DNA of 64,000 bases from Acidobacteriota bacterium. Its GTDB lineage: Bacteria; Acidobacteriota; Vicinamibacteria; Vicinamibacterales; UBA8438. Location: contig VXRJ01000011.1 of the NCBI GenBank assembly GCA_009838525.1, positions 96,262 through 160,261 of the forward strand, read 5' to 3'. The position numbers and the translations under genes were made by a program. Positions 38,598 through 42,060 of the stretch are shown here, in pieces (positions within the stretch are counted from its first letter, which is position 1; the number at the start of each line of letters is the position of its first letter). The notes below the pieces were generated by a model, which ran no database searches, had not been told where the DNA came from, and was given only the letters and a program-made list of their open reading frames with translations.

Positions 38598-39455
38598 CTA
38601 AGGCTTGACTCCAAGCAGGATCACCTGCGCGACGGAGTAGTGCCGGGAGTGCGTCAGCGTGAGGAGCGCACCGCTTCCCCCAAGTTCATCGAATCGCCGT
38701 CGTGCGCCGCCGTGCAGCGCCAGCGTGGGAGGGCCGCCGTGCCGGACCACTTCGATGTCGCGCCAGAGAACGCCACGCGCCCGGCCGGTGCCGAGCGCCT
38801 TCATGGCCGCCTCCTTGGCCGAGAACCGCGCCGCGAAGTGGGGCGCGGGCGCGCGGCGCTTCCGGCAGTAGGCCGCTTCGGCGTCGGTGAAGATCCGCCC
38901 AACGAAGCGGTCGCCGTAGCGCCGCAGGAGCTCTTCGACGCGCCCCACCTCCTCGATGTCGATCCCGATGCCGATGATGCCGGCCGCGCCAGACGCCGGC
39001 TCCCGGCGGGCGGCGGGAGCAGCGCGTCCTGACGGCGCGCCGTCCAGGGCCTGGTTGGCGAGCCGGTCCGCCCTGACGTTCTGTTCCCGCGGAACATGTT
39101 CGTACTTCACGGAATCGAACCGTGCCGCGGTGGCGGACGCCCGGGTGTGAAGCGCCCGCAGCGCCGGCGCACGGACGCGGTAGGCGCCGGTCATCTGCCT
39201 TACCAGCAACTCGGAGTCGGAACGGATCAGCACGTCGCGATGACGCTCTGCCGCGAGGTAGTCCAGCGCGGCAAGAAGTCCGCGGTACTCGGCGACGTTG
39301 TTGGTCGTTGCTCCGATCACCTCGTGCAGCTCGGTGACGAGGCTGCCGTCTTCCGACTCGATCCGCACCCCGTAGGCAGCCGGGCCTGGATTGCCACGCG
39401 CCGCGCCGTCGATCCAGGCGATGGTGCGCGGTGCGATTGGCAGGCGGGCAGTCAC
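38598..39455 (-). CDS. Fused ribonuclease HI and holo-[acyl-carrier-protein] synthase
   Basis: A single 285-residue frame with two enzymes. Residues 12-136 are an RNase H type 1 domain with the catalytic set D16 (WIDGAARGNPGP), E56 (NNVAEYRG), D80 (IRSDSELL) and D130 (NVRADRLANQALD). After a 20-residue Ala/Pro/Arg linker, residues 159-282 are AcpS: GIIGIGIDIEEVGRVEELL with the Mg ligand D166, then ARFSAKEAAMKALGTG (E215, K219) and LTHSRHYSVAQVI. AcpS attaches phosphopantetheine to acyl carrier protein. The usual AcpS start Met is Gly here and no ATG, GTG or TTG lies nearby, so it is not a separate gene. GTG 39455 overlaps the zinc-ribbon stop (GTGA). Confidence 0.9.
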   Translation of the reverse strand: MTARLPIAPRTIAWIDGAARGNPGPAAYGVRIESEDGSLVTELHEVIGATTNNVAEYRGLLAALDYLAAERHRDVLIRSDSELLVRQMTGAYRVRAPALRALHTRASATAARFDSVKYEHVPREQNVRADRLANQALDGAPSGRAAPAARREPASGAAGIIGIGIDIEEVGRVEELLRRYGDRFVGRIFTDAEAAYCRKRRAPAPHFAARFSAKEAAMKALGTGRARGVLWRDIEVVRHGGPPTLALHGGARRRFDELGGSGALLTLTHSRHYSVAQVILLGVKP

Positions 39456-40168
39456 GACGCGGTCGCGGCCGGAAAGTAGAGGATGCGCTGGCAGCTCTCG
39501 CACCGGATCAGCGCATCGTTGCGCCGCACTTCGTTCAGGAGCTGGGGCCGAAGCCGGACCTGGCAGGCGTCGCAGCGTCCATTACGCACCGCGCTGACCG
39601 CCAACCCATTTCGGTGGCTCGCCACGCTCTCGAACAGCGCAAGGACCGACGGCTTGAGTTCGACGACAAGCGTTGCCCGCTCCCCGGCCTTCTGTTCCAC
39701 CTCCGCCTGTAGCCGGTCGCGCTCCGCTTCGAGCGCCTGCCGCGCCTCGGCCACTTCCGCCTCGGCGGTCGTCAGCGCGGCGCGGGCGGCATCCGCCGCG
39801 GCCACAAGCTCGTCCGCCTCGATCATCATTTCCAGCAGTCGATCCTCGTGGTTTTGCTTGTCGGCCTCGCCATGGGCGATTTCCAGCTGCACGGCGTGGA
39901 ATTCCTTGTTGGTCTTCACCGCCATCAACTGGTCCTTGAAGCGCGTAAGCCGCCCCTCGACCTCGGCCAGCTCCTTCTCGATGCCGACGCGGGCGGTCTT
40001 CTGATCGGCTTGCCGCGTCTCGGCCTCGTCGACGGCAGCGCGGCACGTCTGCAACTGCTGGTCGAGCGCGGCGAGCTGTTCGGGGAAGTGGCCGATCGAC
40101 TGTCGCGCGGCGGCGACGTCGAGATCAATCTGTTGGAGGCGGATCAGCCGTTCGAGGTCTGGGTGCAT
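39452..40168 (-). CDS. C4-type zinc-ribbon coiled-coil protein
   Basis: A 238-residue protein with a long coiled coil at about 1-180 and a C-terminal zinc ribbon with two Cys pairs, GRCDACQVRLRP and IRCESCQRILYF. This is the bacterial C4-type zinc-ribbon family, often next to RNase H-like genes; its members are poorly characterised. The ATG at 40168 has no Shine-Dalgarno sequence and lies only 7 nt after the encoded CCA end of a tRNA gene. Its stop overlaps the RNase H-AcpS start by GTGA, so the two are translationally coupled. Confidence 0.88.
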   Translation of the reverse strand: MHPDLERLIRLQQIDLDVAAARQSIGHFPEQLAALDQQLQTCRAAVDEAETRQADQKTARVGIEKELAEVEGRLTRFKDQLMAVKTNKEFHAVQLEIAHGEADKQNHEDRLLEMMIEADELVAAADAARAALTTAEAEVAEARQALEAERDRLQAEVEQKAGERATLVVELKPSVLALFESVASHRNGLAVSAVRNGRCDACQVRLRPQLLNEVRRNDALIRCESCQRILYFPAATAS

Positions 40169-40175
40169 GAGAGAG

Positions 40176-40251
40176 TGGTGGGCCCGCCAGGATTCGAACC
40201 TGGGACCACCCGGTTATGAGCCGGTGGCTCTGACCGCTGAGCTACGGGCCC
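40176..40251 (-). tRNA. tRNA with CAU anticodon, probably tRNA-Ile2 (lysidine type)
   Basis: Cloverleaf on the minus strand: acceptor GGGCCCG/CGGGCCC, D-stem GCTC/GAGC, anticodon loop CTCATAA, T-arm CCAGG-TTCGAAT-CCTGG, A73, and an encoded CCA (40176-40178). One anticodon-stem pair (27-43) is A.G. Anticodon CAU fits elongator Met, initiator Met or Ile2. C4-G69 and C5-G68 in the acceptor match known TilS determinants for Ile2, and the acceptor starts with a normal G-C pair, so it is not an initiator. It lies 8 nt after rpoD and 7 nt before the zinc-ribbon gene. Confidence 0.9.
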
Positions 40252-40258
40252 ATACAGC

Positions 40259-40264
40259 ATTATG
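40259..40264 (-). promoter_or_regulatory. -10 box directly before the tRNA, inside the rpoD stop
   Basis: CATAAT on the minus strand contains the rpoD TAA stop codon and lies 7 nt before the first base (G) of the mature tRNA. If used, transcription would start at or within 1-2 nt of the tRNA 5' end. No clear -35 is visible. Confidence 0.45.
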
Positions 40265-41975
40265 ACGTCCCTCCCTCGAGGAACGCGCGAAGCTTCCGGC
40301 TGCGCGACGGATTCCGGAGCTTCCGGAGCGCTTTCGCTTCGATCTGGCGAATCCGCTCGCGGGTGACGGCGAAGCTCTGGCCCACTTCCTCGAGCGTATG
40401 TTCACTTCCGTCGCCGACGCCGAAGCGCATCTTGATTACCTTCTCCTCGCGCGGCGTCAACGACTTGAGCACCGAGGCGGTCTGCTCCTTCAGGTTCCTG
40501 TCGATGACGGCGTCGGCGGGATTGACGGCGTGGCGATCCTCGATGAAGTCGCCGAGGTGGCTGTCTTCCTCTTCCCCGACCGGCGTCTCGAGCGATATTG
40601 GCTCCTGCGCGATCTTCTGAACGCGGCGGACGCGGGCGGCGGGTATATCGAGCCGTTCGGCCAGTTCTTCTATGGTCGGTTCCCGTCCGTACTCCTGCAC
40701 CAGCGAGCGCTGTGTCCGGATCAGCTTGTTGATGGTTTCGATCATGTGGACTGGAATCCGGATGGTCCGGGCCTGGTCGGCAATCGCGCGGGTGATCGCC
40801 TGCCGGATCCACCAGGTGGCGTACGTGGAGAACTTGTAGCCGCGGCGGTACTCGAACTTGTCGACCGCCTTCATCAACCCGATGTTGCCCTCCTGGATCA
40901 GATCGAGGAACTGCAGCCCGCGGTTCGTGTACTTCTTCGCTATGGAGACCACCAGGCGGAGGTTTGCCTCGACCAGCTCCGTCTTGGCCCGTTCTGCGAG
41001 CATCTCGCCGCGCCTGATGACCCGGAGAGACTGGCCGCGCGTTCTCGTCGTCTCGCCGAGCTGCGCGGACCGTTCGCGGATGTTCGTGCGGAGCTCGCGT
41101 TGCCGGCGCCCAAGCGCCCGCCGCTCACTCTCCGGGAGGCGCGCGGCGTTCGACCGGCGAAGACGCCGGTTGACGGTCTTCAATTCCTGCTGATCCCGCC
41201 GCATCTCGGCGGCCGTTGCCTTGAACAGGACGATCCAGTCGCCGATGACCGACTCGGTGAACTCGATGCGGCGCACAAGACGCGAGAGCGCGACCCGGGC
41301 GCGCAGCAGCCGCTGTCGCGTCTGGTTCCGCAGCGCGCGATTCTGCCGCGAGACCTTGGCGAGCCGCGTCCGCTTCCGCTTCAGTTCGGCATTCGCGGCG
41401 CGGATCGCGTCGACGTCGCCGAGGAACTGCTCGCCACACTCGCCGATCCGGTCGGTGGCAGCCGTCTCGTCGTGCAGCACGATCAGTTCGCGGAGCGTCC
41501 GGTCGCCCCGGCGCAGTTCCTCCCCGAACCGAATCACGTCCGCGGCGACGGCCGGCGACCGGGAGATCACCTTGAGCACCAGCAGCTTGCCCCGCTCGAT
41601 CCGCTTCGCGATGGCCACCTCGCCCTCGCGGGTGAGGAGCGGAACGGTTCCCATCTCCCGCAGGTACATGCGGACCGGATCGCCTGTCTTCTCCACCACG
41701 CCGGGCGTCAGGTCGAGCGCGCCGTCGGTCCGGCCGTCGGGAGAGCGGTCCGCCTGGGCCCGCTTCGCCTCTACATACTTCTCCTCGGACTCGACTACGT
41801 CGATTCCGGCCGCGTTGAGGGCAGTGAACAGCTCGTCCAGATCGTCGGACGTAACTTCGGGGGGAAGCAACTCGTTGATCTCCTCGAAGAGCAGGAACCC
41901 GCGTTCCTTTCCGACGACGACCAGCTGCTGGATCTCGTCGTACTTCTCTTCGATCGACAACGGCTCGTTCGGCAT
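40260..41975 (-). CDS. rpoD: RNA polymerase primary sigma factor RpoD
   Basis: A 571-residue housekeeping sigma-70 factor. It has region 1.1 ([32 protein letters not shown]), region 1.2 ([21 protein letters not shown]), a non-conserved Arg-rich insertion at about 180-330, region 2 ([45 protein letters not shown]), region 3 ([13 protein letters not shown]) and region 4 ([27 protein letters not shown]). ATG 41975 has GAGG upstream; a longer frame lacks conserved sequence. It follows dnaG by 81 bp, and its own promoter overlaps the dnaG end. Confidence 0.97.
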
Positions 41976-42033
41976 ACCGTTACCTCGCGCGATCCGCGCG
42001 GACGCCGCGCGCCGGTACGATTCGCAGGCCCAG

Positions 42034-42060
42034 ATTGTAGCCAATCAGCTGCATCGTCAA
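42034..42060 (-). promoter_or_regulatory. Probable rpoD promoter
   Basis: TTGACG (42055-42060) overlaps the dnaG stop codon and is followed by 15 nt and TACAAT (42034-42039). It would give a leader of about 50 nt with the rpoD Shine-Dalgarno sequence GAGG. The 15-nt spacing is shorter than optimal. Confidence 0.5.

Follow-up and report, generated by a model that had tools for sequence, protein, structure and literature searches.

An RNase HI joined in frame to holo-ACP synthase in a family of Acidobacteriota, and its separate, fused and reduced relatives

A single uninterrupted frame in the window, the whole stretch of 64,000 nucleotides of Acidobacteriota DNA that was analysed, encodes an RNase HI joined to a holo-ACP synthase (AcpS), and it is best read, with a probability of about 0.78, as a two-enzyme polypeptide formed from adjacent genes, in which a flexible tether would hold two independent halves and their joining would be close to neutral. 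An earlier note, made from the letters alone, had proposed this fusion at 38598–39455, and the coordinates are correct; the strand, absent from the note, is minus. The frame runs from a GTG at 39455 to 38598 with 285 codons and a stop, both domains were found by Pfam, RVT_3 (PF13456) at residues 16–136 (E 1.7e-19) and ACPS (PF01648) at residues 162–257 (E 1.4e-19), and the catalytic residues named in the note, its linker of about 20 residues, its GTGA coupling to a zinc-ribbon gene and the identity of that gene were all borne out, as follows.

39452..40168, minus strand: coiled-coil zinc-ribbon gene of the CT398/HP0958/MSMEG_4306 type, whose stop overlaps the GTG start of the fusion (GTGA)
38598..39455, minus strand: fused gene for RNase HI, linker and holo-ACP synthase, 285 aa, GTG start at 39455
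39042..39425, minus strand: RNase HI domain, residues 11–138, archaeal/Rv2228c type, with D16, E56, D80 and D130
38979..39041, minus strand: Ala/Pro/Arg-rich linker, about residues 139–159, start codon absent, pLDDT <50 at residues 143–154
38607..38978, minus strand: AcpS domain, residues 160–283, with D166 and E215

The N-terminal half carries the DEDD catalytic residues and the fold of an RNase HI, with 3hst as its best sequence match in the PDB (44% identity), whereas the C-terminal half is a whole AcpS domain (group I PPTase) that scores 82.9 bits against the NCBIfam model TIGR00516 (curated cut-off 59.8), keeps the Asp and Glu metal ligands and the fold, and shares 36–42% identity with the AcpS of E. 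coli, Vibrio and S. coelicolor. AcpS ordinarily occurs as a separate protein some 120 aa long that forms a homotrimer with its active sites between subunits; unlike it, the AcpS described here is fused at its N-terminus and its own start codon is gone. In the AlphaFold2 monomer model (mean pLDDT 92, pTM 0.53, linker <50), two complete domains are predicted with confidence and their mutual arrangement is not fixed; the RNase H half matches Halobacterium RNase H1 and Rv2228c with TM of about 0.90–0.95 by target length, and the AcpS half matches Vibrio/E. coli AcpS with TM of about 0.9, its fold agreeing with 3qmn and 5vbx. Judged by its sequence, the protein is built like the bifunctional RNase H/acid phosphatase family of Rv2228c (NF005567), yet it is no member, as its 143 bits fall below the cut-off of 326 and the match is confined to residues 15–148; no curated NCBIfam family covers the RNase HI–AcpS pair, NF005567 reaching only the RNase half.

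A protein search of relatives recovered the full-length fusion in at least six divergent genomes of three genera in one Acidobacteriota family (f1): the window genome (genus g1); G010 and G017 (g2); and G005, G013 and G020 (g6). Among 162 genomes of the order the fusions are confined to this family. The five other proteins share 59–66% identity with that of the window. The public Acidobacteria MAG CO36386bin_12 (L023), with a match at identical coordinates, is apparently the same genome as G010. When 396 genomes drawn from the phylum were screened at a strict threshold, only the window's own fusion was returned; a further 396 genomes, from the phylum of L058 (a Rhodococcoides), returned none. 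The apparent internal stops of G010 and G017 proved to be the terminal stop, which the alignment had overrun; those of G156 and G157 are real, which makes them separate genes, and the long match in G064 is RNase H only. The fusion genomes are mostly drafts, and in all six the frame crosses the linker and reaches the end of AcpS without a stop, so that an uninterrupted heritable gene is present in several independent genomes. Differential constraint was observed along the protein: the catalytic residues of both halves are complete in 6/6 fusions, while the linker is poorly conserved and ranges from about 20 to 39 residues; the median amino acid identities of RNase H, linker and AcpS are 65%, 33% and 68%, and their median pN/pS values, without multiple-hit correction and at high pS, are 0.43, 0.81 and 0.36, respectively. 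By these sequence measures the RNase H and AcpS domains are under similar constraint and the linker is variable.

The earlier note had found no obvious explanation for the fusion, and here the relatives supply one, comprising neighbouring genes, surviving intermediates and an RNase H half that later disappeared twice. Other families of the order have the zinc-ribbon gene followed by rnh, an opposite-strand Cu-oxidase_4/PgeF-like gene and acpS. The opposite-strand Cu-oxidase_4 (YfiH/PgeF-like) gene was observed between rnh and acpS in L024, L025, L030, L033, L037, L052 and L064, and its identity was confirmed by Pfam in L025 and L033. In the related family f14, acpS lies immediately next to rnh but is not fused to it, the two being either in different frames (L014, L017, L027–L029 and L031) or in the same frame with a stop in between (G156 and G157). 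Such gene arrangements indicate that rnh and acpS were neighbours before they fused. The likely order of mutations would begin with an ancestor in which rnh, the usual zinc-ribbon partner, and acpS were co-directional neighbours; the pgeF-like gene separating them would then have been lost, rnh and acpS would have come to overlap or nearly touch, the rnh stop codon would have been lost in frame with acpS, and the AcpS start codon, now unused, would have eroded.

On the LepA tree the fused genes lie within one clade, (g6,(g9,(g1,g2))), and their pattern requires three changes, which fits one gain of the fusion with the RNase H half lost twice thereafter; a single fusion event would be the parsimonious reading, with support of 93–95% at the relevant nodes. 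In g9 and two g2 genomes the AcpS follows the zinc-ribbon gene directly and the RNase H half is absent. These AcpS-only genes apparently remained after a fused gene had shed its RNase H segment, because they start at the same ATGA/GTGA overlap where RNase H starts in the fusions and still have no Met at the beginning of AcpS. An AcpS that has apparently taken over the former RNase H start in this way, overlapping the zinc-ribbon stop, was seen in L009, L010, L011, L012, L013 and L015.

The pairing of the zinc-ribbon gene with an RNase HI of the archaeal/Rv2228c type is widespread across phyla, and the product of 39452–40168 belongs to the same zinc-ribbon coiled-coil family as CT398/CdsZ, HP0958 and MSMEG_4306, a conserved upstream neighbour outside the fusion itself, with nothing unusual in the window gene. 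A tRNA-Met gene lies at 40176–40251 of the window, between rpoD (40260–42044) and the zinc-ribbon gene. The earlier note had stated that in actinobacteria the same zinc-ribbon family adjoins an RNase H–phosphatase fusion, and this holds for Rv2228c/MSMEG_4305 (PMC7466739). The Actinomycetales RNase HI–CobC proteins share with the Acidobacteriota fusion the type of RNase HI, the zinc-ribbon neighbour family, a variable linker and an unrelated metabolic enzyme at the C-terminus, and differ in that enzyme, CobC in the former and AcpS in the latter; the two fusions are independent, since they belong to different phyla. In mycobacteria the two domains are functionally dissociable with little or no coupling in vivo, removal of the CobC domain hardly affected growth in a strain dependent on the RNase H domain, and the authors judged the fusion to be most probably fixed by drift (PMC7466739).

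Independent tethered enzymes are favoured here because the variable linker, the separate constraint on the domains, the origin from neighbouring genes and the later loss of one half match the RNase HI–CobC case. The RNase HI half would cleave RNA in RNA/DNA hybrids, its ordinary role, and the AcpS half would move phosphopantetheine from CoA to acyl carrier protein; the flexible tether would join them without catalytic coupling, and the fusion would force equal synthesis of both enzymes and otherwise be close to neutral. Both activities, the absence of coupling and the near-neutrality are probable rather than certain. The fungal FAS alpha subunit is likewise a larger polypeptide that ends in an AcpS-like PPTase (PPT domain), and it follows that an AcpS-type domain can tolerate N-terminal fusion; its partner there is the fatty acid synthase itself, whereas in Acidobacteriota it is an unrelated nuclease.

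An unlikely alternative is that the fusion couples the two activities; RNase H might, for example, bring AcpS to RNA or to the nucleoid, or lipid synthesis might be tied to R-loop load or replication. The fusion persists in three genera and six genomes, every one of which has lost the independent AcpS start, and this could reflect some benefit of coupling; against this stand the variable linker, the lack of domain contact in the prediction, the two losses of RNase H with AcpS retained, and the mycobacterial analogue. Far more doubtful still is the version in which RNase H would open CoA-capped RNA to AcpS or position AcpS at the nucleoid, thereby coupling carrier-protein activation physically to RNA/DNA-hybrid processing.

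As improbable as functional coupling in general is an inactive half that is simply carried along, for example a vestigial RNase H beside a canonical RnhA. Redundancy exists in the window genome, which also contains a canonical RnhA as second RNase HI and an Sfp-type PPTase of 254 aa (PF01648 and AASDHPPT_N), and the relatives that lost the RNase H half carry canonical RnhA, except G001. Nevertheless, a dispensable half accords poorly with the complete catalytic residues and the similar constraint on both halves, and in G005 and G013 (the latter 88% complete) the fusion is the sole RNase HI found. G013, at that completeness, also shows no other PPTase, and these genomes make it probable that each half is important to some lineages at least. 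Canonical RnhA was not found in G005, G009, G012 and G013, where the zinc-ribbon-linked RNase HI, fused or unfused, was the only one detected.

A separate acpS gene was sought in the window genome, as the earlier note had suggested, and none was found; each of the six fusion genomes has exactly one TIGR00516 match, the fused gene itself. The note's premise that AcpS is essential is weakened, as the Sfp-type PPTase is a possible backup and a sister lineage within f1 has no AcpS-type gene: TIGR00516 matched none of its 16 genomes (G002–G004, G006, G007, G009, G011, G012, G014, G015, G018, G019, G021, G024, G025 and G027), several of which are >95% complete. All of these except G002 have a PF01648 match in a longer frame that looks Sfp-type, and AcpS has apparently been replaced by an Sfp-type PPTase in this clade.

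Separate production of AcpS is slightly less probable than an inactive half; it would require initiation at a non-standard codon inside the gene (ATC160/161) or cleavage of the linker, which is predicted to be disordered and could be cut in the cell. The former Met position in the window gene reads Gly-Ile-Ile (GGC ATC ATC), so the AcpS start holds several ATC codons; but no in-frame ATG, GTG or TTG occurs between codons 117 and 169, the nearest being 116, inside RNase H, and 170, past the catalytic Asp, so the claim that AcpS alone cannot be made from a normal start stands. Across the six fusions the residues at this point are GII, LVV, RVI, GVI, GVL and DVV with a start codon in 0/6, and where the Met codon once stood there is GTC, ATC, CTC or GTT, depending on the genome, so no near-cognate start, which would have undone the earlier claim, is conserved. 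An assembly error or frameshift artefact, for which the 38-contig draft state of the window genome is the only point and no supporting evidence was found, is extremely improbable given that the in-frame fusion recurs in five further divergent genomes.

No description of an RNase HI–AcpS fusion was found in the open-access literature searched; the pair is new as found, while fusion of RNase HI to an unrelated enzyme is already known from RNase HI–CobC. Two unrelated housekeeping genes have here become one, and the separate-adjacent, stop-separated, fused and later-reduced stages are all present in living relatives. Together with the mycobacterial RNase HI–CobC, this suggests that an RNase HI gene of this type can tolerate fusion to any downstream enzyme, and it cautions that gene fusion need not prove functional linkage. 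The fusion looks like a by-product of adjacent genes rather than a new function, and its interest lies mainly in the well-preserved evolutionary series.
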